A stretch of DNA of 64,000 bases from Bacteroidales bacterium (GTDB lineage Bacteria; Bacteroidota; Bacteroidia; Bacteroidales; P3). Location: positions 1-64,000 of the forward strand of contig JAEEHQ010000094.1 in NCBI GenBank assembly GCA_016280915.1, read 5' to 3'. This document shows positions 77 through 18,518 of the stretch, piece after piece. The translations under genes were made by a program, and so were the position numbers. Within the stretch, counting starts at the first letter, position 1. Every line of letters starts with the position of its first letter. Below the pieces are notes generated by a model, which saw only the letters and a program-made list of their open reading frames with translations, was not told the origin of the DNA and did no database searches.

Positions 77-2097
77 ATTTCTTCATCCTTGTTTTGATGG
101 GATATGGTATCTGAGTGCGGAAATTATCGGATAATCTTTTCATTTTCTTGTGTCTTAATCCTTATTTTAATGGGATGTGACAATTGGAAAAAGAAGGAAA
201 ATGAAGTTCTACCTGGTGTCTTAATCCTTATTTTAATGGGATGTGACAATAGACCTTATGATGGTAATAATGGTATTAATGGTGTCTTAATCCTTATTTT
301 AATGGGATGTGACAATAGTGCCTCCTCCGTCATCGACAAACTCATCGGTGTCTTAATCCTTATTTTAATGGGATGTGACAATTGCATCTTGTATGGATGG
401 TCACTCTTTGGTGGTGTCTTAATCCTTATTTTAATGGGATGTGACAATAAGAAAGGACAACTATGAATAATTATGGTAGGTGTCTTAATCCTTATTTTAA
501 TGGGATGTGACAATAGTTCCTGTTGGTGCCACACACAATGGTGGGGTGTCTTAATCCTTATTTTAATGGGATGTGACAATTCTTCTCCATATGGAGGGAG
601 GACTGATTAAGGTGTCTTAATCCTTGTTTTAATGGGATGTGACAATATTGGCAGTACTACACGCCTGAGAGCGTCTAGGTGTCTTAATCCTTATTTTAAT
701 GGGATGTGACAATAGTGTTCTGGCATGATAACGATTGTGCTGAGGTGTCTTAATCCTTCTTTTAATGGGATGTGACAATCAATAGAACAATTGAGTTTGA
801 TCAAAAACCGGTGTCTTAATCCTTATTTTAATGGGATGTGACAATCAGCTAAGGACAAAGTATTCAATGAAACAGGGTGTCTTAATCCTTATTTTAATGG
901 GATGTGACAATTAGACGTACCCTGCAATGTCCACTTTGAGGGGTGTCTTAATCCTTATTTTAATGGGATGTGACAATATGAAGAAACTTTTTAAAATTTA
1001 AACCGCAGGTGTCTTAATCCTTATTTTAATGGGATGTGACAATTCAGAAGTGCAATGTTCCCTGTCTTATTATGGTGTCTTAATCCTTATTTTAATGGGA
1101 TGTGACAATTACTGAAGAATTATTAGAAAATATGGATAGGTGTCTTAATCCTTCTTTTAATGGGATGTGACAATAAAGGTATTGAACATGATATTTATAT
1201 CAGTGGTGTCTTAATCCTTATTTTAATGGGATGTGACAATCGTATGGCCGTCACCACTAAGGCCGCTCAAGGTGTCTTAATCCTTATTTTAATGGGATGT
1301 GACAATAACGGTACTCAAAAGTAATACGTCAGCGGTGGTGTCTTAATCCTTATTTTAATGGGATGTGACAATTGACAATCGTGAAGCTGCAATTAACGAG
1401 ATGGTGTCTTAATCCTTATTTTAATGGGATGTGACAATTAATAAAATGTAAGTTGGTGTCCACTTATAGGTGTCTTAATCCTTATTTTAATGGGATGTGA
1501 CAATATAGAACTCCGCAACCTGCAAATAACAAGGGTGTCTTAATCCTTATTTTAATGGGATGTGACAATTTCAAATGGGCAGAAAATATAAGGAGGACGG
1601 TGTCTTAATCCTTATTTTAATGGGATGTGACAATCAATGCTGAAAAATACTGTATGGGTATTAGGGTGTCTTAATCCTTATTTTAATGGGATGTGACAAT
1701 ATATTCCAAGGTATGTTAAATAATCTGTTCGGTGTCTTAATCCTTATTTTAATGGGATGTGACAATTGCACCCCGTCAATCGTGTAGCGTATCGGCGGTG
1801 TCTTAATCCTTATTTTAATGGGATGTGACAATTTAACATTAAAAACTTTGTCAGAATGGAAAGGTGTCTTAATCCTTATTTTAATGGGATGTGACAATCT
1901 ATGACTTTTCAACAACAATCCCCTTATGGGTGTCTTAATCCTTATTTTAATGGGATGTGACAATTTCCGGATTAAAAACAAATTCATAGCGTGGGGTGTC
2001 TTAATCCTTATTTTAATGGGATGTGACAATCATTGTAGACAGGTAGTTGTTTAGGATGGAAGGTGTCTTAATCCTTATTTTAATGGGATGTGACAAT
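77..2097 (-). CRISPR. CRISPR array, 30 intact repeats (GGTGTCTTAATCCTTATTTTAATGGGATGTGACAAT on +) plus 1 degenerate terminal repeat; spacers ~29-31 nt
   Basis: Repeat starts counted at 65-66 bp period from 150 to 2063. Near-identical repeats with single variants (cctTGtttt near 612, ccttCtttt near 745 and 1140). Degenerate copy at 77-111. Minus orientation inferred from the degenerate end and spacer coding bias. Confidence 0.98.
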
Positions 2098-2400
2098 CAC
2101 GATTTTCATATTCAAAATAATATCAGTTTGTTACGCTAAGTTTTAAAGATATTATTTTGGCTTGGGTAGGTATCATAAGGACCCTTTCGTGGCATTTTTC
2201 TTATCGTAATGGTGCGGCGATGATGTCCGATAAAGTGTTTCTTTGTTTGTTGATGATAGCCTTTACGATGTCCAAAATGTCAAAGAACGCTTACAATAGC
2301 CATAGGGATACAACCTTATGGTGTTTGTTTTGCAAAAATACACTTTTTTTTTGACTTGTTTTTCTTTTTCTAAAAAAATCAAGAGGTTTGACTATCTACC
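2098..2400 (-). promoter_or_regulatory. Candidate CRISPR leader (AT-rich, next to the non-degenerate array end)
   Basis: Lies at the end opposite the degenerate repeat. Minus-strand -7-like TATTTTTG at 2341..2334. No clear -33 box seen. Confidence 0.5.
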
Positions 2401-2639: not shown

Positions 2640-2771
2640 ATGAAATCAAAAACTACCAAATACATCGTTAAGATTGCCATCGCAGTTCTTCCCATTGTGT
2701 TGGATTTGGTGAATCAGGAGGATGGAGAAGAAAAAAAAGATGTTAGGGATTTCTATTTATCAAGAATTTGA
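2640..2771 (+). CDS. Small amphipathic peptide, copy 1 (MKSKTTKYIVKIAIAVLPIVLDLVNQEDGEEKKDVRDFYLSRI)
   Basis: Translated by hand. Shares the KIAIAVLPIVLDLVNQE core with the three downstream tandem copies. Upstream TACTTTTG -7-like box. Confidence 0.7.
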   Translation: MKSKTTKYIVKIAIAVLPIVLDLVNQEDGEEKKDVRDFYLSRI

Positions 2772-2936
2772 GAATTGGAGAAATTGGAAATCGCATTTTT
2801 TGAATTTGATAAGGATTAGAGACTTTAATTGCAAGCAATAAAGAGAATTTGAATATATGCAAATAGACTGCACGAGAAGGTTGTTTCTTTGCACCATCAA
2901 ACAAAAACGATTATTAACCTTTAAAATATTTTTACT

Positions 2937-3050
2937 ATGAACCCTATAGTTGTAAAGACCCTAGTTAAGATCGTCATCGCAGTTCTTCCCATTGTGTTGG
3001 ATTTGGTGAATCAGGAGAATGGAGAAGAAAAACAAACGCCATGCAAATAG
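2937..3050 (+). CDS. Small amphipathic peptide, copy 2 (MNPIVVKTLVKIVIAVLPIVLDLVNQENGEEKQTPCK)
   Basis: Tandem copy, below the ORF-track length cutoff. Confidence 0.75.
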   Translation: MNPIVVKTLVKIVIAVLPIVLDLVNQENGEEKQTPCK

Positions 3051-3120
3051 ACTGCACGAGCAGGTTGTATCTTTGCACCATCAAACAAAAACGATTATTA
3101 ACCTTTAAAATATTTTTACT

Positions 3121-3234
3121 ATGAACCCTACAGTTGTAAAGACCCTAGTTAAGATTGCCATCGCAGTTCTTCCCATTGTGTTGGATTTGGTGAATCAGGA
3201 GAATGGAGAAGAAAAACAAACGCCATGCAAATAG
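3121..3234 (+). CDS. Small amphipathic peptide, copy 3 (MNPTVVKTLVKIAIAVLPIVLDLVNQENGEEKQTPCK)
   Basis: Tandem copy at 184-bp spacing. TATCTTTG box at 3068-3075. Confidence 0.75.
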   Translation: MNPTVVKTLVKIAIAVLPIVLDLVNQENGEEKQTPCK

Positions 3235-3304
3235 ACTGCACAAGCAGGTTGTATCTTTGCACCATCAAACAAAAACGATTATTAACCTTTAAAATATTTT
3301 TACT

Positions 3305-3418
3305 ATGAACCCTACAGTTGTAAAGACCCTAGTTAAGATTGTCATCGCAGTTCTTCCCATTGTGTTGGATTTGGTGAATCAGGAGAATGGAGAAGAAAAA
3401 CAAACGCCATGCAAATAG
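3305..3418 (+). CDS. Small amphipathic peptide, copy 4 (MNPTVVKTLVKIVIAVLPIVLDLVNQENGEEKQTPCK)
   Basis: Tandem copy at 184-bp spacing, with its own TATCTTTG box. Confidence 0.75.
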   Translation: MNPTVVKTLVKIVIAVLPIVLDLVNQENGEEKQTPCK

Positions 3419-3672
3419 ACTGCACAAGGAGGTTGTACTTTTGCACCATCAAACAAGAAATGAATGATTACTTTTAAAACTGATAAGATATGAACAAAAA
3501 AGATTTATTGTAGTCGACGTAATAAGAATTGTGTTGAATCAATTGTCTGGTGCAAATCCAGCAGAAGCCATCACACAGCCTTGAGCGACAGGGACAGGCC
3601 AGTTCCCAGCACAGGGAATCCCCATACAACAAAAATACCGGCCATCAATAAACAAACCAAAAAAAAGAAAAT

Positions 3673-4761: not shown

Positions 4762-6840
4762 ATGAACGGCGTACAAATTGACACCACCAATGCACAGCAG
4801 GTTTTTGCCTACGAACTGATAGCCCACACCAACAGCAGTTTCTTCCTGACAGGGAGGGCCGGCACGGGCAAGACCACTTTTCTGCACCGTGTGCAGGAGC
4901 TGGTGGACAAACGTTTTGTGGTGCTGGCACCCACGGGTGTTGCCGCCATTCTGGCGGGAGGAGAGACCATACATAGTTTCTTCGGCCTGCCTCTGGAGGT
5001 TTGTACGCCGGCCACTTGTGGCAAACTGAACGAAAAGCGGATACTTACCATCCTGCATGCCGACACAATTATTATAGACGAGGTGTCGATGGTTCGGTGC
5101 GACATAGTGGATGCGATAGATTACACCCTGCGCCGAGTGCTGCGCAACAACATGCCCTTCGGCGGCAAACAGGTGGTGTTTGTGGGCGACATGTTCCAAC
5201 TGCCCCCTGTGGTGTCCAACGGCCCTGAGAAAGAGATGCTGCGCTATCTATACCAGGCGGATGATTTCTTCTTCTACAAGGCCAACGTGATCAGACGTAT
5301 GCGGTTGGTGACGATAGAATTTCAGAAGGTGTACCGCCAGGCAGACACGGCATTCCTGCACATACTGGAAGATGTGCGGCTGAACAAAATTACCCCTCAC
5401 GACGTGCAACAACTGCATCGGCGCGAGTGCTTGCCGCAACCAGAGGACGGCATGGTGATTACGCTCACATCGGTGAACCGGACGGCCGACAGCCTGAACC
5501 GCCAACGTCTGGCAGAGATAGAGGCGGAAGAGAGGGTATATGAGGGCGTTGTGGAGGGTCGGTTTGACGGCAAACGCTTCCCCGTGGAGGAAAACCTGCA
5601 CCTGAAGGTGGGGGCACAGGTGATGTTTACCCGCAACGACCAGATGAAGCGTTGGGTGAACGGGACGCTGGGCGTGGTGGAACGGCTGGAAGAGAATGCA
5701 GTATACGTCACCGTTGACGAAGGCGACACCTATGAGGTGCCCAAAGCATCATGGGAATCGGTAGAGTATGAGTACAACGCGACAGATAAGAAACTGAACA
5801 AGGAGGTGACAGGCACGTTTACCCAATATCCCCTGCGCTTGGCATGGGCCATCACGGTGCATAAGAGCCAGGGCATGACCTTTGACAAGATGTCGCTGAA
5901 CCTGAGCAACGGTTTCTTTGCTGCCGGACAGCTGTATGTGGCGTTGAGTCGCGTGCGCACGCTGGAGGGCTTGTACCTGAAGGGTGGCATGAGGGGCCTT
6001 TGTGCAAAGACCAACAAGGAGATTGTGGCCTTTGCCAGCAACTACAACGACGAGGCGGCCATCAGCCACGAGATTGAGAGCGGCAAGGCGGTGTATGGGC
6101 TGATACAGGAGCATGACTATGATGAAGCTGCCAAACAGTATCTGCTGTTGGTACATAAGTATGCGGAGCAGGGAGACATCAAGGAGGCGATGCAACAGGC
6201 CAAGCGTTTCTTGGACACCGTGGTGTGCGATGAGGAGCTGTATGGGGTGATTGCATCGGTGCCCGTGACGCTGAGCGAGGCAAGCCATTGGTCGACACAA
6301 TTTCTGGCCGCGCTGTTGAGCCTGTATGCAGGAAAGTACGAAGAGGCGTTGGCCTGTGTGGACCGTGTGCTGGCATACCACCGCTGCCAGGAGGCCCTCT
6401 ATGTGAAGTCGCGCTGCTTGGAGAAGCAGGAACGCTATGAGGAGGCCGACAGGGTGAATGCCGGGATTGCCGAAACATTTGAGGTGAATGTGCCAGACGC
6501 AAAGGTGCTATATGCAATGGCCATGCTGAACGAGCTGCATATCGGCGACCCGGGGCTTGCCATCATGCAGATGCTGGTGGATGCCAAGCCCAAATATGAC
6601 CGCGGGGTCGTGTCGATGAGGATGTTGATGCGCCGTCACCAGTTGACCTTACCGGCCAAACAGGATTGCGGGATGGTGGATTTGTTCAACTCAGATATGT
6701 CTGACCACGACTTTGCCGCCCGCCTGAAAGAGGGCAGGAAAAAGTCGCCTAAGGAGGTGAACTATCTGGTGGGACGTATCCGCAAGCTGAAGTTTGAGGA
6801 AGGTGAAGCGAGTGTGGTTGAGGAAGAGGAGGCGGATTAG
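4762..6840 (+). CDS. PIF1-like SF1B helicase with C-terminal helical/TPR-like region
   Basis: Walker A GRAGTGKTTF, Walker B IIIDEVSM, GDMFQLPPV, AWAITVHKSQGMTFD, YVALSRVRTLEGL motifs. Confidence 0.93.
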   Translation: MNGVQIDTTNAQQVFAYELIAHTNSSFFLTGRAGTGKTTFLHRVQELVDKRFVVLAPTGVAAILAGGETIHSFFGLPLEVCTPATCGKLNEKRILTILHADTIIIDEVSMVRCDIVDAIDYTLRRVLRNNMPFGGKQVVFVGDMFQLPPVVSNGPEKEMLRYLYQADDFFFYKANVIRRMRLVTIEFQKVYRQADTAFLHILEDVRLNKITPHDVQQLHRRECLPQPEDGMVITLTSVNRTADSLNRQRLAEIEAEERVYEGVVEGRFDGKRFPVEENLHLKVGAQVMFTRNDQMKRWVNGTLGVVERLEENAVYVTVDEGDTYEVPKASWESVEYEYNATDKKLNKEVTGTFTQYPLRLAWAITVHKSQGMTFDKMSLNLSNGFFAAGQLYVALSRVRTLEGLYLKGGMRGLCAKTNKEIVAFASNYNDEAAISHEIESGKAVYGLIQEHDYDEAAKQYLLLVHKYAEQGDIKEAMQQAKRFLDTVVCDEELYGVIASVPVTLSEASHWSTQFLAALLSLYAGKYEEALACVDRVLAYHRCQEALYVKSRCLEKQERYEEADRVNAGIAETFEVNVPDAKVLYAMAMLNELHIGDPGLAIMQMLVDAKPKYDRGVVSMRMLMRRHQLTLPAKQDCGMVDLFNSDMSDHDFAARLKEGRKKSPKEVNYLVGRIRKLKFEEGEASVVEEEEAD

Positions 6841-6883: not shown

Positions 6884-8521
6884 TTAGAAGTATCTGCGGA
6901 ACTGAACGAACTGGAAGGTGGAGATTTTTTGTCCTGAGCCATCCTCGACGACATCGCGCCGGGTGGTGGATGCCACACATGGGATATGATGTTCCTGGAG
7001 GAGTTGGAGCAAGGCAAAGGTGAAGTTCATCTCGCCCATCAGATGGACAGTAACGTCAAACTTTTGGCGATAGCTGAGAATCTTGTTGAGGTAGTTGTTG
7101 GCAAGTTGCGAAATGTAGTTCTCGTCCTTGGCTGGGTCGATTTGTGGGAACTCGAGGTCGACGATTTTGCCGTAAGGCTCAGCTGCCTTTCTTTGTTCAT
7201 CAGACCATGTTTCTTTAGAATGATTAGATAGATTGATAAGACACCTTTGGGTAGGTTTCGGAGTGGGGTGGTTTATGTTTACCCAGATGGATTCTAATTT
7301 CTTTATAGAATCGCCAAGAGTGTTTATCAACTGTAAGGGGGTCTGCTTCAGCTTCAACTCATGGGCTATACTATTCCGTATTTCATTGACATCCTTATAA
7401 ATCCTTCTCAGTTGAGGCAAGCATGTTATTTTATAGGTCTTGCTGGTATTCTTGTATATGAGTATTAATTTTGCTTCTTCTCTGGCCTCTTTGTCGTTGT
7501 AGTTGGAATCCACTATCTGGCAGATATAGGTAATCATGGCTTCCTGCAGGGCAAGATAGGACGAGGCGTAGTTCTTATGTAGGAAATGCCATTGAGCTAC
7601 ACGAAACTGGAAAATATAGGGCTCGGATTGATAGGGGAATTTCTTGGTGAAGTCTTGTATAATAGGAGGTATTAGCAATGATGACAAGGTATCAAATTCG
7701 GTGTTTTTCATGCTTGCCATATTACCAATTTGATTTCTGATGCCACCCAGGTGGTTGAGGTTCATTACATCGGAGAAGTTCCTTAGGCGCTGGCTGATAT
7801 CTTTGCGGTTTCCCTCTTCTAATAAGTCGGCCACTTTATAGCCATTGCCGAATTCAGATAGGCTGTAGGCTCCAATAATCCAGTCGTTAATGTTCATGAT
7901 TTCGTTGAGCTCTACAATAGGAGCATAATTCATCTCCCTTACAACATCAAGCATGCCATAAGTGATATGAGTTATGGAGATATTCTTGTGGCTAACATTT
8001 TTTAGATACACAAGAAGATTCATGATGTAGAGAGGTAAAGAACGAAAAGAATGAGTGATGTCAACCAGTATTTCGTCACCTCTATTGATATACTTTTCTA
8101 TTCCAAGTATGATAGAGGCATTCTCCTTCAGTTCTTCCGGGGTAATACCATATTTGACTAACACAACTTTGGAATCAGGGCCAAGAGCCTTTTCCAGTAT
8201 TTCTTGGGATGGTATGGTAAGGCCAGAGTTATAGTTGGAACTTTCACAATAATCACCTAACTCTATATAGTACTCCTCATTAAAAGTGGAATTAACCTTT
8301 TCCTTTTCGAAGACTTGATAGACTTCTTCCCACATGGATTTTACTGTTCCAATAAGAATGATTCGGTCCACATTATAGTACTTGGCCAAGGCATGGGCTA
8401 CAAAGGTAGTAGTAATGTCGGTATTGTCGGGCAAACGATAGGTTGCTTTTCGGTAATTTCTTTCGCTACCGTTTTTGGTAGGATATCCCGTACCAAGGAA
8501 AGAGATTAAGATTTTTCCCAT
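6884..8521 (-). CDS. Type III CARF-HEPN ribonuclease (TIGR02221/TM1812, Csx1/Csx2-like) with extra C-terminal small Rossmann-like domain
   Basis: N-terminal ILISFLGTGYP CARF start. HEPN RX4H motif RNSIAH. C-terminal segment LINLSNHSKETWSDEQ...VHLMGEMNFTFALLQLLQEHHIPCVASTTRRDV...ISTFQFVQFRRY. Confidence 0.88.
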   Translation of the reverse strand: MGKILISFLGTGYPTKNGSERNYRKATYRLPDNTDITTTFVAHALAKYYNVDRIILIGTVKSMWEEVYQVFEKEKVNSTFNEEYYIELGDYCESSNYNSGLTIPSQEILEKALGPDSKVVLVKYGITPEELKENASIILGIEKYINRGDEILVDITHSFRSLPLYIMNLLVYLKNVSHKNISITHITYGMLDVVREMNYAPIVELNEIMNINDWIIGAYSLSEFGNGYKVADLLEEGNRKDISQRLRNFSDVMNLNHLGGIRNQIGNMASMKNTEFDTLSSLLIPPIIQDFTKKFPYQSEPYIFQFRVAQWHFLHKNYASSYLALQEAMITYICQIVDSNYNDKEAREEAKLILIYKNTSKTYKITCLPQLRRIYKDVNEIRNSIAHELKLKQTPLQLINTLGDSIKKLESIWVNINHPTPKPTQRCLINLSNHSKETWSDEQRKAAEPYGKIVDLEFPQIDPAKDENYISQLANNYLNKILSYRQKFDVTVHLMGEMNFTFALLQLLQEHHIPCVASTTRRDVVEDGSGQKISTFQFVQFRRYF

Positions 8522-8735: not shown

Positions 8736-11174
8736 TCATTTGATATCATTGAACAATTGCTGGGCTTTTTCGGACGAAGTCCACTCCGATATTTTTTTCC
8801 AGATAGGGGAATCGAGAGTTGCCCATCCTTTGTCGGGTTTAGGCATATTGGCCAGTCGGGTGAGTGTTGCCTTGAAGGCCTCTATTTGGTCGTCGGGGAT
8901 AGCACTATTGCCAGAGTCTTTGAGCCATTTATCGACTTTCTTGGCACAAACCTTGAAATCTTTCACAGCATAGTCGCCATTGGCAAGTTTTTTCTCCAAC
9001 TCGGCAGCGATGCCACTTTGGGAAGAGGAGGCTTGCTTGGCCTGGCGGATGCGTTGCTCGACTTCGGCAAAACGGCTGTCGTTGGGGAGTAACGATTTGG
9101 CTTGGATGACTCTTGCAAGTGCTTGCTCAAACTGGGCTTCTTGGGAGAGACTATCAGCTTCCTGTAGCAGTTGGACGAAACGATTCTCGAGATCGGCGGC
9201 TTGCTGCGCCTCTTCAGCCGCTTTCAGACCAGTAGTGTACTGCTGGATAAGATTTTCGATTTCATCCATTTGGGTAGCATCTGCCAACCCTGCCAAATCA
9301 ATCTTCAGTTGTCGCAATAGGTCAATGGCTTGTTCCCATTTACCCTCCTCGGCAAAAGTCTTTGCCCCAGAAAGTACTGAGGTGCTCTTCTCATTAACAA
9401 ATTGCATCCTATGGAACTCTTTGACCTCGTCTTCGTTGACCAAGATATTGATGTTCCGTTCGTTTTCAACAAGACTGGATTTGTTGTTATTGTTTTTATA
9501 GAGTTCACACGTATCGAAATCCATTTCAAGCATCTCTTCGGGTGTATGAGTGGCAGAGGCGATACTGACTAACTGTTTTAGGCAGGCTTCGGAGGAGAGA
9601 GAGCTTCCGTTGGATTGGAGGAAATAGGAAATCTCGCTGTTGAATTCTTTGAGATAATCGTCCATGCTGAATTGAAACCCCTCCATGTTCACAACCTGAC
9701 AAGTGATGATGCCGTAGCCAAAAGACTTGGCCATGCCAATATTATGGTAGGTTCCTTCTGTTTGGTTGAACGTGATGGCAGCGAGCAAGGCTCCTATCTC
9801 AAGTTTGCGCAGGTTGTGAACGCGAATCTTGCAGGTGAAGGTGTTATTGGAAGGTAGGGGCGTGAATTTCGACATGATGTTTTCGTTGCCATTGCCTTGT
9901 TGTAGTGGAATGGTCGTAAGTCCTCTTGTGATGCGGTATCGCTTGCGGCCGGCTATGGTGGCGAACTCTGAGGAATAGCGTTGCAGCTCATTTTGGTTTT
10001 GCTGCAGGTAGAGAGGATAATAGGAGGCACGGGGCTGTCCCAAGACACCGCTGACGGTTTGCATGGGCTGAATGTTGGTGTTGTCGGCAAAGGCATTGCC
10101 AAAGAGAACACGTCCACGCAAGGAATTGCCATCGCCGATGTGGCCGAAGATGGCATGTGGAAGGTCGATGTAGCCTTCGGCCAACTTGGCTTGGGCATGC
10201 TCAACCATGTCTTTGACGGAGAATTGATAAGGATAGCGATACTTGGCTGTAATGCCCATGGTGAGAACTTGGTGGGTACGTTCGTCCTCTTCGAAGAAAA
10301 CGGGGATAGGGTCACCTGCATCAAGCCGATTCTTTAAAAAGCCACCCTTACCATTCTTTCCACCATAATATGGGGTGTTCTTGTGGACGGTATCAAATTT
10401 CTTGAACACTTCGGGAGAAACCTCAATGGGTTTTTCCTGGTTCTCGGAGAAAAGGTATTCTACTCCTTTGCCTTCCATGTAGCCTGTGCACACCACACGG
10501 TAATTGCCTCTTGGAACGGTCTTTACTTGACCGGCCATTTTGTAATGAAGCGTATCGCTTTCAACGGTTATGATGGGATAGAGTTCTCCACCTTCATTGA
10601 AAGCAAGGCTTTTTTGTTTTTTCTCGGCGCTATCAGGGCTTTCTTCGTTGAGGAAATTGGGGAAGTGTTCATTAAAGAATACATTACCTCTACCATTGAC
10701 CTTGATTGGTTGTATATTGGAAATGCAAGGTCTGATGAAATAGGATGTTTTATTGCTGTCTTCCTTCTTAAAGAGCCATCCACAACGCTTCGCATTCTTT
10801 ATCTTGTTGGGATATTCTTTGCTTACCTTTGTATTGAAATCTCTAAATCCAAAGTAGTCGTCATTATATTGCTCCAATTGTGCAAACGAGAGGATTTCCA
10901 TGACGCTGCGGAAACACCCCTTGAGGGTGGTGCCGGGGATGTAGTAACGTTTGCTCCCATCGGGCATATCGATGTGGCGTGACAGCGGGATTTCGCTGTC
11001 GTCTCCCTCTTTCTTGTTGCCGATGAATAAGGGTGAATGATTGGTAATCTTGAGCGTAATGGTACCATCCTCACCATCGGCAAAGGGTATGTCCATGGAA
11101 ATCTGGTCGCCCCAATCGACGGTGTAGGCCTTTTTGTATAAAGGAACGAAATTATATGGTGCAGTAATAGGCAT
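8736..11174 (-). CDS. Type III CRISPR RAMP protein, TIGR03986-like, with long C-terminal helical extension
   Basis: Start ITAPYNFVPLYKKAY...DIPFADGEDGTITLKITNHSPLFIG; RAMP glycine loop YYIPGTTLKGCFRS; helical Ala/Glu/Gln-rich C-terminus. Confidence 0.87.
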   Translation of the reverse strand: MPITAPYNFVPLYKKAYTVDWGDQISMDIPFADGEDGTITLKITNHSPLFIGNKKEGDDSEIPLSRHIDMPDGSKRYYIPGTTLKGCFRSVMEILSFAQLEQYNDDYFGFRDFNTKVSKEYPNKIKNAKRCGWLFKKEDSNKTSYFIRPCISNIQPIKVNGRGNVFFNEHFPNFLNEESPDSAEKKQKSLAFNEGGELYPIITVESDTLHYKMAGQVKTVPRGNYRVVCTGYMEGKGVEYLFSENQEKPIEVSPEVFKKFDTVHKNTPYYGGKNGKGGFLKNRLDAGDPIPVFFEEDERTHQVLTMGITAKYRYPYQFSVKDMVEHAQAKLAEGYIDLPHAIFGHIGDGNSLRGRVLFGNAFADNTNIQPMQTVSGVLGQPRASYYPLYLQQNQNELQRYSSEFATIAGRKRYRITRGLTTIPLQQGNGNENIMSKFTPLPSNNTFTCKIRVHNLRKLEIGALLAAITFNQTEGTYHNIGMAKSFGYGIITCQVVNMEGFQFSMDDYLKEFNSEISYFLQSNGSSLSSEACLKQLVSIASATHTPEEMLEMDFDTCELYKNNNNKSSLVENERNINILVNEDEVKEFHRMQFVNEKSTSVLSGAKTFAEEGKWEQAIDLLRQLKIDLAGLADATQMDEIENLIQQYTTGLKAAEEAQQAADLENRFVQLLQEADSLSQEAQFEQALARVIQAKSLLPNDSRFAEVEQRIRQAKQASSSQSGIAAELEKKLANGDYAVKDFKVCAKKVDKWLKDSGNSAIPDDQIEAFKATLTRLANMPKPDKGWATLDSPIWKKISEWTSSEKAQQLFNDIK

Positions 11175-11176
11175 AT

Positions 11177-11614
11177 TTAGTCCTCCTTATCGTTAATAAA
11201 TCCAACAAAAACCAGTTTCTCAGGCACAAGGGTTTCCATCTCTTCGCAAAAGCAATCGGGCTCAGGCTTCCAATACTGAAGGAACTGGAGGTAATAGGGC
11301 ATCTGGTTGCCGCGGTAGTTGACGATGCGGACGTTCTCGCGGTTGTAGTCGAGCGAATCGACCTTGGTGTCGGTGACGATATAGTTGCCATCGACAAATT
11401 TGATGCTGTAGGACATGAGGTTGTCTGAGTCGTAGAGGAGCCCTTCGGCAATAAACTGCCCGGGCTGGAGTGAGAAACCTTCATACTGGACGGTGGCAAC
11501 TCCGTCGGAAAACTTGATTTCTATTTGCTTGTCATTATGTATAATCGAAGGCTTCTTCTGGTCGCTGAGCCAGAGATAGCCTTGGCATTTGCATTTATCA
11601 ATCTTCTTATTCAT
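11177..11614 (-). CDS. Small type III-associated protein, TIGR04423-like
   Basis: 145 aa, embedded in the type III operon; MPYYLQFLQYWKPEPDCFCEEM. Family assignment is tentative. Confidence 0.65.
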   Translation of the reverse strand: MNKKIDKCKCQGYLWLSDQKKPSIIHNDKQIEIKFSDGVATVQYEGFSLQPGQFIAEGLLYDSDNLMSYSIKFVDGNYIVTDTKVDSLDYNRENVRIVNYRGNQMPYYLQFLQYWKPEPDCFCEEMETLVPEKLVFVGFINDKED

Positions 11615-12974
11615 AGATTACCTCCTTGTTTTTTGTCAATTTACCAGAGAAGACCCCATTGCCCCGATTGACACCACCACCAAGGGGCAGCAGGCCCCGG
11701 CAGATGTCTTTGAGGGTTTCTTCTAAGGCTTTTTGTATAATAGCACTTTTGCTATCAGTATTATTGAATACTTTCTTGTCGACAAGAATGGTGAGCTGGA
11801 TGGGGTAGTCGTGGGCATAGACATTCTTTTCGAAAAAGAGGGCACCCTCGAGGGCACCACCGGTGAAACGGTCGACAGCAAGGTGGCTGTTGACGTAGGA
11901 ATTAAGAGCGGTTTTCTCAATAAAGACATCGGACAAGATGACGTGGCCGCGTTCTTGTTTTTCTTGAGATTTTCCAATAAAGCCAAAAAGGGTTGACACG
12001 GCAGGGTTATCCTCGCCAGTTGTGGCATAAGGATGCCCCACGGTGTAGCCTTTTTGTTTGTTCCAATGATAGCAGACACGATGAGAGATGGCACCCTTGA
12101 TGGATGAAGCGGGAAGCAGGTAGCACTCTTTCCAGTCGGCTTTATTGCCATCCCAAACTACGATATACTCGGTGACAGGAGCCATGTCGACCTCGTCGTC
12201 ACCCAATCCGCTACCAAAAAAGAAGAAGTCGTCTGCCTTTAACTCTAAGAGATACTCATCCCAGCTGTTGGAGGAATTTGGGGTAGCAGGATGATACTCC
12301 TTTGACCAAAAATCGCTACCGAGCATGGCACTCTTGTTGAGGTATTTATTGCGTTCGGTTGGATTGTCTATGTCAATCACTCGCTGCTGGAGGTCAACAA
12401 CTTTGACATTGCCGAACCCATTGCGTGTGCCACCTCCCAGACGGAACTCGCCATGACAGATGGTGTCAAGGACCTGCTGGAAACGATGGTCGTCGCGGGT
12501 GTTGCTAATCATTTCCAATTCAAAGCAGAAACGAGTGCCGGCATAAACTATTTGCTCGTCGAATTTACCATAGTTGTCCTCATCGGAAACGCCACGATGG
12601 TTGATGCGGACATGCTGGCGGATGGGAAGGTCGCTGTAGAATTGCAAAATGGGGTCGTTGGCTATGTCTGAGTAAGGCACGATGCCGTCCATGACACGAC
12701 CTTGTGAATTGATGATTTTGGCCTCGGTAAAGAGGATAGAGGAGCCTATGGGATTATCACCTGCTTGACCAAAGAACACGTCCTTTTGTGTGGGATCCAT
12801 CAAGCTGCGAACCACACCTGCAATGGCTGTGCCTGGAATGTAAGGCAAATAGTTGGAATCGACAGCCACGGCGGCATCGGTCTCGAAAAGTTTTTCGCCG
12901 GAACCGATGGCGAGAGGCGAGGTCAGCTCGATGACGACTTGGGCTAAATATCTGAATTGGTTGAGTGTACTCAT
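11607..12974 (-). CDS. Two-domain Cas7/Csm3-like RAMP protein
   Basis: First RAMP: SPLAIGSGEKLFETDAAVAVDSNYLPYIPGTAIAGVVRSLM. Second: FFFGSGLGDDEVDMAPVTEY...YLLPASSIKGAISHRV. Start set at internal MSTLNQF. Confidence 0.88.
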   Translation of the reverse strand: MSTLNQFRYLAQVVIELTSPLAIGSGEKLFETDAAVAVDSNYLPYIPGTAIAGVVRSLMDPTQKDVFFGQAGDNPIGSSILFTEAKIINSQGRVMDGIVPYSDIANDPILQFYSDLPIRQHVRINHRGVSDEDNYGKFDEQIVYAGTRFCFELEMISNTRDDHRFQQVLDTICHGEFRLGGGTRNGFGNVKVVDLQQRVIDIDNPTERNKYLNKSAMLGSDFWSKEYHPATPNSSNSWDEYLLELKADDFFFFGSGLGDDEVDMAPVTEYIVVWDGNKADWKECYLLPASSIKGAISHRVCYHWNKQKGYTVGHPYATTGEDNPAVSTLFGFIGKSQEKQERGHVILSDVFIEKTALNSYVNSHLAVDRFTGGALEGALFFEKNVYAHDYPIQLTILVDKKVFNNTDSKSAIIQKALEETLKDICRGLLPLGGGVNRGNGVFSGKLTKNKEVIYE

Positions 12975-14455
12975 GATTGTTTCTCCTTTCTGCAAATTTT
13001 GGCCATTTCGGAAGAAAGATTGATAAGTGCACGACGTGCAAAAATATCGCCTTTGGGGCCAAGATCAACAATGAATTTCTCAAGATCATCACGGCGTTTG
13101 CGCTTAGACCACTTATCTTTGGCGACACCATGGTTGAGGTAGGAATCATTATTATTGACTATCTTGTCCATCATTTCTTGGTGTGTATAACAATCCATGG
13201 CTTTTGACCTAATGGTACTCCATTGAGAAGAAAATGATTCGGTGCTGATGAACTGGTTTCTGTGCTGTTCAATCCAGTCGTTGACCATGCTGTAGATTTC
13301 TTGAGAATCGTTTTCTTCTTGAATACGGTCTTGGACGTATTGCAACAACTCGGAGGACTTGAGCTGGGGATTGTCGGAAAGGTAATCGTGGAGTGTTGCC
13401 TTATGCTCTCCATCAGGGGAAGACGATTGTAGCAGGTATTGGGCAACGCCATTATCGTCGGCATGGAGGAAGTCGGGGTTGTAGATGACTCGACCAAACC
13501 CCTCATTGTTGTAGTTGCCGATATACTGTGAATCGTGGGTCCAATTCGCTTTGGCTTCTATTACAAAGACGCTGCCACTTTCGATGCCGGTGCGTTCGGT
13601 GTCGAAGCACCCCCGGGCGTAGTTCCATGGGGAGTAGCGGAAGGTGCGTATTTGCGAGAGATCCCAACGTATTTTCCCATCGACGTTGGGGTCTTTTAGC
13701 AGTTGGGTGACGGTAGGACGGTAGGTGGCTTCTCCTGTTGAATCGTCAAGGAAGATAAGCCGACTGTCGGCATATACTGAAATAAGATTATCCTTAGAAG
13801 GGCCACTTGTGACTTCGTCAAATTCATAGGGCTGGATGTCCACCAATCCGTATTGAGCCGAGCGAGAACGCCCAATGCGGTGGATGCCCGTGAGATAATT
13901 TTGGATGATGCTGGATAACCTTTCGCAGTTGACATCGACTTCGACGGTAAAGTAAAGAGTAAGGCCTTTCTGGAGAGATTGATAGCCAAAGAGTTGACTG
14001 TTAGCAGAGGATTGTGTCTCGTAGTCGCGGGCAGATTTGATGGCAAAATTGACATTTGTATCAATCTTTTTTGCTACAGATTGATTGAAGCTGTAGTAGC
14101 CTGAGCGGCATTGTTTTAATTGAGTGTCGCGGAGGCGTTGCTTCTCGACAGGACTAATCCAATGGTGGATGTAGCATTTGTCGGCAGGGGTCTCCAATTT
14201 GGGGTAGAACATGGATGCCGGCACTTTGAGGCCACGGAATTGACCGGAGGAAGGGTGGGCATCGCCGAAACGCACATGTCCACTATGGAAGAGGAGCAAG
14301 GAATCAGCTTTTAATTCCTGGTAATGCTGTGCAACGATTCCCAAGAAGTTGCTGCCAGGGATGAAGTCAAGCGTTTGATTAGGTCCCTCAGAGGCTGCTT
14401 TTTGGTTGAGAATGACATCGGTTAGCAGCTGACATCTCATTTTAAGCGCTTTCAT
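12971..14455 (-). CDS. csx10: Csx10-like RAMP protein (type III, Cas5 group)
   Basis: DFIPGSNFLGIVAQHY near N-terminus; GIHRIGRSRSAQYGLVDI glycine-rich loop; position in operon. Confidence 0.75.
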   Translation of the reverse strand: MKALKMRCQLLTDVILNQKAASEGPNQTLDFIPGSNFLGIVAQHYQELKADSLLLFHSGHVRFGDAHPSSGQFRGLKVPASMFYPKLETPADKCYIHHWISPVEKQRLRDTQLKQCRSGYYSFNQSVAKKIDTNVNFAIKSARDYETQSSANSQLFGYQSLQKGLTLYFTVEVDVNCERLSSIIQNYLTGIHRIGRSRSAQYGLVDIQPYEFDEVTSGPSKDNLISVYADSRLIFLDDSTGEATYRPTVTQLLKDPNVDGKIRWDLSQIRTFRYSPWNYARGCFDTERTGIESGSVFVIEAKANWTHDSQYIGNYNNEGFGRVIYNPDFLHADDNGVAQYLLQSSSPDGEHKATLHDYLSDNPQLKSSELLQYVQDRIQEENDSQEIYSMVNDWIEQHRNQFISTESFSSQWSTIRSKAMDCYTHQEMMDKIVNNNDSYLNHGVAKDKWSKRKRRDDLEKFIVDLGPKGDIFARRALINLSSEMAKICRKEKQS

Positions 14456-15003
14456 TCGTCACCCCCTTTCTGTATGTCGATAAACTGGCAACGGCCAAGT
14501 CCACGGCTGCGGCCTGTTCCGAGTCTTTTGATATATTTCATAGCATCAATTACATTGTTCGCAGCCTCATCGGGCACATGATAGATACAGCCTTGCAACG
14601 TACATGGGATGGCAACCTCGATTTTGCGAAGGCTTTGATGTTTGGCTACACCTTTTTCATCAATAGCTGTACTGGATATTTTGCGGTAAAGGTATTGCTG
14701 AGAGCGAGTGGCAACGAGAGCGTTCTGCTCTTCTTGGGGTAGTTCGGCATCGGTGAAGAAAGCTTCAGCAGGGGCTTTGTCGGTTGCGGGGGTGTCGGGG
14801 CCAAACAATCGGAGGGTGACATCCTCAGCGGAGGAGGCAACCCAGGTGTAGGCCTCACGAATCAAGCCTTTGACGGTTTTGCCAGGAAGGAAGGGCAACT
14901 TATCAGGGGTTTTGATTACCAACATGTCGACATCGGCTCCAGCCGCAAGGCCAGAACCACAATGCCAGTCGGAATAGAACTTTATTTTATAACTAATTTT
15001 CAT
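14452..15003 (-). CDS. Csm3-like Cas7 RAMP protein
   Basis: FYSDWHCGSGLAAGADVDMLVIKTPDKLPFLPGKTVKGLIREAY; IKRLGTGRSRGLGRC C-terminal loop. Start at MKISYK. Confidence 0.88.
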   Translation of the reverse strand: MKISYKIKFYSDWHCGSGLAAGADVDMLVIKTPDKLPFLPGKTVKGLIREAYTWVASSAEDVTLRLFGPDTPATDKAPAEAFFTDAELPQEEQNALVATRSQQYLYRKISSTAIDEKGVAKHQSLRKIEVAIPCTLQGCIYHVPDEAANNVIDAMKYIKRLGTGRSRGLGRCQFIDIQKGGDE

Positions 15004-16591
15004 TTTTATCTGTGTTTCTGGTAATTTGACTATTGATAGTATGGAGAGCCAACATATCATAGGTGGGATAGGCTATGACATCTTTTTCGAGCTGGCGACC
15101 TTGGGTCATGCTTTTGATAATGCTGCTTCGGCTCTTTTCTAAGTTGATGATGCGGCTGAGCATTTGTTTGGCCTTTCCGCTGTCCTCGAATAGCGTTGAC
15201 ATCCAACGACGTAGCGAAGATTTGATGCGATTGCCCTCATCAGCATTTAGCATGTCCACTTTTAGGAGAAGGTTGTCGATGGTCCAGTTGTTGCCGTGTT
15301 CTTCAAGATAGTAGGGACCATATTTAAAAGAAGTGTGGGAGTCGGGCATCAACTCGCGTTTGACAACATCGGTATAATTCTCATTGAAAGAATCCTGTAC
15401 TTTGTGGAACATCATACAGGAGTCGGCCAGCTGCTCTCCGGCTTTGATTGCGGGGCTGTTTTTGGCATCTTTCTTGGCGGCTTCACAAAGTTGTTCGGCA
15501 AGGTCATAGGCATAATAGAAAGGGTAGGCGGACTTGACGAATGCAATGCCAGCACATGCGGTTAGGCAATCGGTCTTATTACCTTTGGTGAAAACCTTGT
15601 AATCTTTATTATTTAGGATATTGGCAAGGTACTTACGTGTTTGCTGCTCAAATGCCTGCATGAAATTTTTCACATAATCGATGGCAAGGTCGCCACGGCA
15701 GATGAGGGTGTGGTCGTCGCCACCCAGCACGACAGGACGGATGGGGATGGCCTTGGAATCGCCAAATTGACCACGGACAGCATTAAACGCCATGTTGGCA
15801 GATTGGACAGTTGCCTTATTTAGATTTTCAGAGAAAAGCTTAAATTGTTCAGGGTTTGTGCCCACTTTACGAACAACCTGTCCCATGCCATTACCATCGA
15901 TATGAATGACGGCTATCCATTTGTTTTTGTCGATCATGTTTTCGATGTTGTAGGCTACTTCCTTGTTTTTAATAGGAATGTTGCCGAAGGCCTTTTGACA
16001 CAACCTGTAGGTGGTTTGGCGCGGAATATAGGTTATCTTGCGGCCACTCCGCTCGACCAGATAGTTGAGTTTGGCCACGGTGGCCTCGTCCAGATAATCT
16101 TCTCCTTCTTTATGCACAACAGGCATATTGGTGCGACGACTGCGTTGGAGACCGATAAGACCATGGCTCAGACTAACCATGGGTTTGTTGCGCTGAGACA
16201 AGAGAAGTTCAGCTAACGTTTCAGACGCATCGCTCAAGGGTTTGTTTTCGTCTAATAATAAGACAGCCTGGCTGATGGTGATGCCTGGGGCAAACTCGGA
16301 GATGCGCTTGGGAAAGTAGCGGACGACCTTACGACAGGCCTCTTCGTCGTTGAAAATGTAATTAACGGTTCCGGCAGCATGACGGATTGCACAGGGGTCG
16401 TTGCATAAGAGATTGTCTGCATCTTCGAAGCTAAGTTTGTTATCCCCAGTTAGCATCTTGGCAAACTCCAGCGTGCATATTTCTTCTACCAACTCGCTGG
16501 CCCCTACAATCTCACGCAGTTTGTTGGTTTGGAAAATGAAGCTCTGGATGCCTTGGACAGCTGCTCCATATAAGTATTTTTTACCTTCCAT
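14993..16591 (-). CDS. cas10: Cas10 (Csm1/Cmr2-type) large subunit, no N-terminal HD domain, GGDD cyclase motif intact
   Basis: GIQSFIFQTNKLREIVGASELVEEI, VIHIDGNGMGQVV, VVLGGDDHTLIC, CAGIAFVKSAYPFYYAYDLAE; 532 aa. Confidence 0.95.
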   Translation of the reverse strand: MEGKKYLYGAAVQGIQSFIFQTNKLREIVGASELVEEICTLEFAKMLTGDNKLSFEDADNLLCNDPCAIRHAAGTVNYIFNDEEACRKVVRYFPKRISEFAPGITISQAVLLLDENKPLSDASETLAELLLSQRNKPMVSLSHGLIGLQRSRRTNMPVVHKEGEDYLDEATVAKLNYLVERSGRKITYIPRQTTYRLCQKAFGNIPIKNKEVAYNIENMIDKNKWIAVIHIDGNGMGQVVRKVGTNPEQFKLFSENLNKATVQSANMAFNAVRGQFGDSKAIPIRPVVLGGDDHTLICRGDLAIDYVKNFMQAFEQQTRKYLANILNNKDYKVFTKGNKTDCLTACAGIAFVKSAYPFYYAYDLAEQLCEAAKKDAKNSPAIKAGEQLADSCMMFHKVQDSFNENYTDVVKRELMPDSHTSFKYGPYYLEEHGNNWTIDNLLLKVDMLNADEGNRIKSSLRRWMSTLFEDSGKAKQMLSRIINLEKSRSSIIKSMTQGRQLEKDVIAYPTYDMLALHTINSQITRNTDKNEN

Positions 16592-16681: not shown

Positions 16682-17770
16682 TTATTGTTGTTGAGTTATC
16701 CTCTGGTAAATGTCGCAAATGGATTGAGCTCGGTTGATTATCATTTCTTGTATATCCTTGGGCTCGAGCACTACAAGGTCGTTGCCGAAGGATGAGAGTT
16801 CGCGGATGAGCTCGTAGTTTACTTTGCAATCAATCGTGCAAAAGATTCCACCCTCCAGTTGGGGGTATTTCTCACGGTATTGTTCATCGGATTTGATGAG
16901 CTTGAAGGAAGAGTGTATGGACTTGGTGGTAACATAGCCCTTGGAGTTATCGCTGACCCAGAATAGTATTGTTTGGCATGGCTTATCTTGATAATTGGTG
17001 ACTCCTATTATTTCTTCGAAAAATTCAAAAAGTAACCCCGAATATTTTCGGTAGGGATGTTGTGTAAGAATGATAACTTGGTCGATAGAGTCAAGCCGGA
17101 AAGGCCATGGGACTTGGGCGACTTTTCCATTTTCTTCAACACATCCCATTAAGAACCATCGATTGTTGTATTCGCGCAACTGGTAAGGGTGGACAATACT
17201 GATGATGGGTACATCGGGTTCTTGGAACGTGTGGTGATGTAATTCAATGGGGCGTTGTTTGGTAATGGCTGAAAACAATTCGCCAAAGTATTGGGTGTTC
17301 TCTATGCAGCTGCTCTCCATAACGACAATAGGGTTCTCGTCTTGGGGTAACTCCTTTATCTGACTGCGAAGACGCTCAAGGCCTTTGAGATTGGGAATGC
17401 CTTCAAAATGGCCCAACAAGGAGAGCGATTGAGTTAAGATGTATTTCTCGTCTTCGGTCATGGGAACGGTGAAAATGGAAGAATGGGGGTCTTCGTAGTG
17501 AATCCATTTCATCGTGTATTTGTCAGAGTCGGATTTGCTACTATGGGCCGCGATGGGGGTGCGGAGGAGTGTGACGCTATTGCAAAATTCGGTTTCGATG
17601 AAGTCGAGGTCGTACTTGAGCGTACGTGACGAGATACCTAAAGAGCCTTCTTCTTCAAGACGTTGATTTAAACCATTAAGTAAAGTATCGTACGTATATT
17701 GGACGCTCTTATCGGAAAGCATCTGGTCGAGTATCTTGTATCGTTTTAAGGCATCTTTTGTGGCTGGCAT
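16682..17770 (-). CDS. WYL-domain transcriptional regulator
   Basis: N-terminal HTH-like region (GISSRTLKYDLDFIE); HPYQLREYNNRWFLMG WYL signature. Confidence 0.88.
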   Translation of the reverse strand: MPATKDALKRYKILDQMLSDKSVQYTYDTLLNGLNQRLEEEGSLGISSRTLKYDLDFIETEFCNSVTLLRTPIAAHSSKSDSDKYTMKWIHYEDPHSSIFTVPMTEDEKYILTQSLSLLGHFEGIPNLKGLERLRSQIKELPQDENPIVVMESSCIENTQYFGELFSAITKQRPIELHHHTFQEPDVPIISIVHPYQLREYNNRWFLMGCVEENGKVAQVPWPFRLDSIDQVIILTQHPYRKYSGLLFEFFEEIIGVTNYQDKPCQTILFWVSDNSKGYVTTKSIHSSFKLIKSDEQYREKYPQLEGGIFCTIDCKVNYELIRELSSFGNDLVVLEPKDIQEMIINRAQSICDIYQRITQQQ

Positions 17771-17828: not shown

Positions 17829-18518
17829 TTACTTTTCACCTGTATTACCTTGAGTCCTTTGGATGATGATTCCATGTGCCATGCTGGCACCTTTGCCTAA
17901 GCCGATGTAGTTGGGGAGGGTGATGTTGCTTTTGAACTCACCGTCGAGAGTCATGTAGGGGATGCCCTTGAATCGGGTGACTCGGGGTTCACCGGTGTGG
18001 AGGATCTTGCATTGGATTTCGTTTTCAATCGTTACCCCCAGACCCTTGCAGGCCGAGAGGATGTTGCCGATGAGTACCTTCTCGAGCATCTGGGTGCGCT
18101 CAACCAATCCTTCCATTTCCATGTATTTTTGATGGTTTTCCGGATTCAGGGGTAACCAGTTGCGTAGATAGTAGGCAAATGACTCATTCCATACTTGTAC
18201 CAATGTGCGATGGGGAATGATGGATTCTATCTCGAATTGGGTGGCGGGCTTATCGCCTAACTTAAACATAAAGTCGCTGTTGCGGAAAAAAGCTCCAATC
18301 TCTTCAACCCCTTCTCCAACACAGACAATTGTGGCCTGCCCCTTGATGCATTTGTACTGGATCAATGGGTATCTGTACCGGAATCCATCCCCTTGGTGGT
18401 TGTGGAACAACTGACAGTTGCAGTCGCTTGCCGCCTCGATGATGGCACCCCGGAAGAGGGGGATTTCCCATTGAGCTATCTGATTTTTAAACTTGACTAT
18501 GAGTGTATTAATATACAT
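17829..18518 (-). CDS. cas6: CRISPR Cas6-like endonuclease (Cas6b-type)
   Basis: 229 aa, first gene of the operon; C-terminal LPNYIGLGKGASMAHGIIIQR glycine-rich loop. Confidence 0.82.
   Translation of the reverse strand: MYINTLIVKFKNQIAQWEIPLFRGAIIEAASDCNCQLFHNHQGDGFRYRYPLIQYKCIKGQATIVCVGEGVEEIGAFFRNSDFMFKLGDKPATQFEIESIIPHRTLVQVWNESFAYYLRNWLPLNPENHQKYMEMEGLVERTQMLEKVLIGNILSACKGLGVTIENEIQCKILHTGEPRVTRFKGIPYMTLDGEFKSNITLPNYIGLGKGASMAHGIIIQRTQGNTGEK

Follow-up and report, generated by a model that had tools for sequence, protein, structure and literature searches.

Does the last gene of a type III-D CRISPR locus in a Bacteroidales bacterium encode both an RNase and the enzyme that removes its activator? 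This question was raised by a gene in the window, which is the whole 64,000-nt stretch of DNA analyzed here (contig JAEEHQ010000094.1, positions 1 to 64,000). A sequence-only reading had described its product as a CARF-HEPN effector fused to a second, ring-nuclease-like domain of the Csx15/Csx16/Csx20 type. The gene is a single open reading frame of 545 aa, starting with ATG and containing no internal stop. Its parts are listed below.

6884..8521, minus strand: csx1-csx20 fusion gene, CARF-HEPN-Csx20, 545 aa (open frame; PADLOC PDLC01843 end to end, 1e-95)
7907..8521, minus strand: CARF sensor domain, about residues 1-205, boundary approximate (TIGR02221; strand-helix pattern in the AlphaFold2 model)
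7274..7906, minus strand: helical, HEPN-containing part, about residues 206-416, with RNSIAH (R382, H387) (PDLC01826 residues 1-412; RxxxxH alignment; mostly helices in the AlphaFold2 model)
7247..7273, minus strand: proline-rich linker NHPTPKPTQ, residues 417-425 (sequence; pLDDT below 50 at 418-423)
6887..7243, minus strand: Csx20 domain, residues 427-545, 119 aa (PDLC01397 1.4e-38; conserved residues; AlphaFold2 pLDDT 93.8)

The description of the N-terminal half was borne out. The proposed TM1812-type CARF start, ILISFLGTGYP, occupies residues 4-14, and TIGR02221, the model of this CARF type, matched residues 4-235 with E = 8.8e-49 and 166 bits against a cutoff of 76. The DxTHG motif model scored 28 for the CARF domain (cutoff 21), and the motif DITHSFR starts at residue 154. 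Among the PADLOC profiles, CARF_HEPN (PDLC01826) matched residues 1-412 with E = 8e-121. The RX4H motif of HEPN domains, RNSIAH, was found at residues 382-387 (R382-NSIA-H387) and is aligned with the RxxxxH of seven CARF-HEPN relatives. By family resemblance, this half is a predicted Csx1-type RNase that would be activated by cyclic oligoadenylate.

The remaining C-terminal tail begins with CLINLSNH from residue 427 and contains VHLMGEMNF from residue 492. That it is a separate domain behind a proline-rich linker was confirmed by the AlphaFold2 models. The tail alone was predicted as an independent alpha/beta domain (mean pLDDT 93.8, pTM 0.83), and the pLDDT of the linker was below 50 at residues 418-423 in the full-length model. 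The separate fold and the disordered linker rule out that the tail is an ordinary part of the HEPN domain. The best PDB matches of the tail model, which were weak (E about 1e-3, TM about 0.5), included the CARF domain of Cam1 (with cA4 or cA6), Csm6 and the SAVED proteins Cap4 and Cap5. The model thus suggests a CARF-like Rossmann fold. In the full-length model (mean pLDDT 69.4, pTM 0.40) the tail was well predicted, but the overall confidence is too low to fix how the two sites lie relative to each other. Its best match among solved structures was the Marinitoga Csx1-Crn2 fusion 8y7g (E = 2.2e-14), which supports the analogy with Csx1-Crn2 drawn earlier from the sequence; the TM-scores were low because the domain placement is uncertain. 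PDB sequence searches with the tail gave no match. A weak whole-chain PDB match to Abl interactor 2 was taken as chance.

The family of the tail was given by profile comparisons. Taken alone, the tail matched the PADLOC Csx20 model PDLC01397 with E = 1.4e-38 over positions 2-114 of 114, and only Csx20-type models matched it in PADLOC. The NCBIfam Csx20 model NF040559 gave 32 bits (E = 1e-7) and did not reach its cutoff of 70. Therefore, the tail seems to be a homologue in a Csx20 subgroup other than that of the NCBIfam model. Stand-alone relatives from the tail's subgroup likewise match the PADLOC Csx20 model. When 73 Csx20 sequences were aligned, all strongly conserved polar positions proved to be retained in the tail, including N430, N433, H434, W439, Q443, D455, H493, G496, E497, S518, T519, R522, R542 and Y544. 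Among the well-conserved positions, only residue 435 departs, with Ser where 66 of the 73 sequences have Pro. Judged by these profiles and residues, the tail is Csx20. Of the three families that had been offered, Csx15 and Csx16 were thus rejected: the combined Csx15/20 model gave 1.5e-14, compared with 1.4e-38 for Csx20, and the Csx16-only PADLOC model did not match. The Pfam model DUF1874 (Crn2) did not match the fusion protein either. A search of the genome for Csx16 found no match, but equally none was found in any control genome, so the search does not establish that Csx16 is absent. The ring-nuclease-like assignment of the tail held up, as stand-alone Csx20 was reported in 2025 to degrade cA4 in vitro (PMC12409355).

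The fusion gene is the last in a minus-strand gene set whose order is Cas6b, WYL regulator, Cas10d, Cas7, Cas5, Cas7, Csx19, Cas7 and the fusion. The other features of the locus are as follows.

8736..11174, minus strand: type III-D Cas7-type RAMP protein of the TIGR03986 family (PDLC02108 6e-125; TIGR03986 1.9e-80)
11177..11614, minus strand: Csx19, III-D subunit (TIGR04423 1.4e-27; PADLOC Csx19 8.5e-31)
11607..12995, minus strand: III-D Cas7 with two RAMP stretches (PDLC02107 2.9e-142)
12971..14455, minus strand: III-D Cas5, Csx10-like (PDLC02088 5.3e-141)
14452..15060, minus strand: III-D Cas7 (PDLC02110 1.3e-64)
14993..16591, minus strand: Cas10d, GGDD intact (residue 290), no HD dipeptide (PDLC02058 5.4e-153; motif scan)
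16682..17770, minus strand: WYL-domain regulator (Pfam WYL and WCX; PDLC01652)
17829..18518, minus strand: Cas6b (Pfam Cas6b_C 7.3e-31, Cas6b_N 4e-25)
80..2100, strand not given: CRISPR array, about 30 repeats with a period of 66

With Cas10d, the III-D Cas7 and Cas5 proteins and Csx19 all matched, the locus is type III-D by its gene content. Synthesis of cyclic oligoadenylate is expected because the GGDD of Cas10 is intact. Cas10d, a Csx1/Csm6-type protein and Csx20 each occur once in the genome. Despite the array, a search for Cas1 gave no match in the genome assembly, which is rated 99.5% complete. Around the fusion gene, no promoter or terminator stood out, and neither did any RNA structure on its 3′ side. 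Two other features of this region were observed. Between the array and the next gene, at 2667-3459, a unit of about 184 bases occurs in three tandem copies (96-97% alike) and a partial fourth. A PIF1-like helicase with a TPR-like C-terminal part is encoded at 4762-6840 on the opposite strand and converges with the fusion gene.

Taken together, we consider it probable that the Csx1-Csx20 fusion is a self-limiting CRISPR RNase, able both to sense its activator and to remove it. Because stand-alone Csx20 degrades cA4, the protein is best read as a self-limiting effector like Csx1-Crn2. On encountering target RNA, the Cas10 of the type III-D complex would make cyclic oligoadenylate, most likely cA4. 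Binding of cA4 by the CARF dimer should then switch on the HEPN RNase, as in the family, and the C-terminal Csx20 domain would bind and cleave the same cA4, as the stand-alone protein does. Of cA3, cA4 and cA6, we infer that cA4 is the signal. With the sensor and the off-switch fixed at 1:1, RNase activity would need high cA4 and would end by itself. For Csx1-Crn2, competition for cA4 between the RNase and the ring nuclease has been shown, with the latter limiting the former (PMC7293037).

How Csx20 is usually arranged was surveyed in genomes from the order, phylum, class and family and in database loci, which gave 80 distinct Csx20 loci. In this sample, which is centred on the phylum of the window so that its counts are not global frequencies, Csx20 was fused behind CARF-HEPN at five loci (the window, L014, L029, L047 and L091). 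It directly followed a separate same-strand CARF-HEPN gene at 28 of the 80 loci and a Can2-like gene at 16. Thus csx20 and csx1 are often neighbours (28/80 adjacent and 5/80 fused), and the fusion probably formed from a csx1 and a csx20 gene that shared a locus. All five fusions have lost the start Met of Csx20, which is replaced by Cys, Leu, Ile, Phe and Phe. In the window it has become Cys427 (TGT), and the surroundings of the junction contain no in-frame ATG, so a separate Csx20 product is unlikely. The three other fusions that were scanned score best with PDLC01843, and the window protein scores best with PDLC01826.

Csx20 also occurred in other settings. No phage record matched the tail. 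A Csx20 homologue at L096:5998-6351, possibly an anti-CRISPR ring nuclease, lies on the viral-collection contig IMGVR_UViG_3300020201_000037. At four loci (L003:3671-5572, L010:6456-8300, L011:9998-11818 and also L086), Csx20 is N-terminal to a RecD/PIF1-like helicase. These Csx20-helicase fusions match PADLOC PDC-M16A models (1.7e-117 for L010), and the one in L003 immediately follows a stand-alone Csx20; that locus also contains csx1, a Can2-like gene and an apparent cas1 downstream. In two 225-aa proteins (L075:1186-1863 and L078:1495-2172), each directly following a Can2-like gene, Csx20 is preceded by about 105 N-terminal residues that are apparently membrane-spanning.

We then asked whether the five fusions share one origin. 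The tree of CARF-HEPN proteins places the window protein with L002 and L003 at full support, on a long branch apart from the others, and a single clade of the five fused proteins was rejected (AU test, p = 1.5e-55). In L002 and L003, csx1, a Can2-like gene and csx20 are found in that order as three genes. The separate CARF-HEPN lineage and these relatives with unfused genes make an independent fusion the best reading; the window fusion apparently arose independently of the other four. The Csx20-domain tree is poorly resolved: a single fusion clade was not rejected in a quick tree (p = 0.64) and was weakly rejected in a careful one (p = 0.03). Only the CARF-HEPN tree is decisive on the number of fusions. 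Alternatively, an already fused Csx20 piece may have moved onto another CARF-HEPN gene.

Might the fusion itself be an artifact, with two separate genes joined during assembly? The assembly is fragmented (147 contigs), no second assembly with the fusion was found, and 190 genomes of the same family contained no other fused copy. Against this, the frame is open across a junction that has Cys in place of the start Met and no in-frame ATG nearby, the same architecture occurs in four more genomes, each without that Met, and a PADLOC model of it exists. An artifact is therefore extremely unlikely. It is also unlikely that the Csx20 domain has lost cleavage and now serves as a cyclic oligoadenylate-binding or dimerizing module, i.e. 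a sponge or a second sensor. A fused domain can always lose its catalytic activity, and in the 2025 study almost no cleavage was seen with the neighbouring candidate family Csx15, for which a sponge role was suggested (PMC12409355). However, a degenerating domain should have lost some of the strongly conserved polar positions of Csx20, all of which are kept here.

Another possibility concerns the client of the tail. Some Csx1 proteins are known to have intrinsic ring-nuclease activity (PMC12409355). The CARF domain might thus be the main ring nuclease, with the Csx20 tail redundant for the linked RNase and mainly clearing cA4 for other effectors, such as an orphan Can2-like nuclease. Such a gene exists on another contig of the same assembly (L099:6325-7494 on contig C74; CARF-PDDEXK, PDLC01880 1.3e-51), and elsewhere a Can2-like gene is located between csx1 and csx20, as in L002 and L003. 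However, the stretch read around it on C74, in which no CRISPR gene or array was found, has a GC content of 0.537 compared with 0.441 for the window, so the gene is possibly mis-binned. We regard this division of labour as very unlikely. If the Can2-like gene belongs to the organism, the fused Csx20 would limit its product in trans too, as has been proposed for another Marinitoga effector (PMC7293037). It is a tentative and rather doubtful extension that the fusion arose more than once and that the sole Csx20 here switches off both the linked RNase and the unlinked, orphan Can2-like nuclease.

The Csx1-Csx20 architecture is already known. The PADLOC model PDLC01843 (CARF2--CARF_HEPN_CSX20) has the same domains in the same order and aligned with residues 2-544 of the window protein over model positions 2-498 of 498, although the best CARF-HEPN model of the window protein is a different one, PDLC01826. 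The fusion that had been noticed from the sequence is thus real but not a new architecture. Its tail has the same domain family, length and conserved residues as stand-alone Csx20 (PMC12409355). However, the latter is a separate small protein, whereas here Csx20 is the C-terminal domain of the RNase and has lost its start Met. Marinitoga Csx1-Crn2 (PMC7293037; PDB 8y6z, 8y7g) likewise carries a ring nuclease at the C-terminus of a CARF-HEPN RNase, but that ring nuclease, Crn2 (DUF1874), belongs to a family other than Csx20. Crn4 (Unk01), another ring nuclease, is likewise adjacent to or fused with effectors (PMC12830947) and also differs in family from the tail. The 2025 survey of ring nucleases used a size limit of 250 aa, which excluded Csx1-Csx20 fusions (PMC12409355). 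No biochemical study of a Csx1-Csx20 fusion turned up in the literature searched, which did not include the primary NAR 2020 CARF classification.

The speed of signal removal decides whether type III CRISPR kills or spares an infected cell. With sensor and off-switch at 1:1 in the fusion, this balance would be measurable in one purified protein. Csx1-Crn2 is the only fusion of an RNase and a ring nuclease characterized in this way in the literature searched (PMC7293037). A Csx20 version that arose separately, if true, would suggest repeated selection for tying the RNase to its brake.
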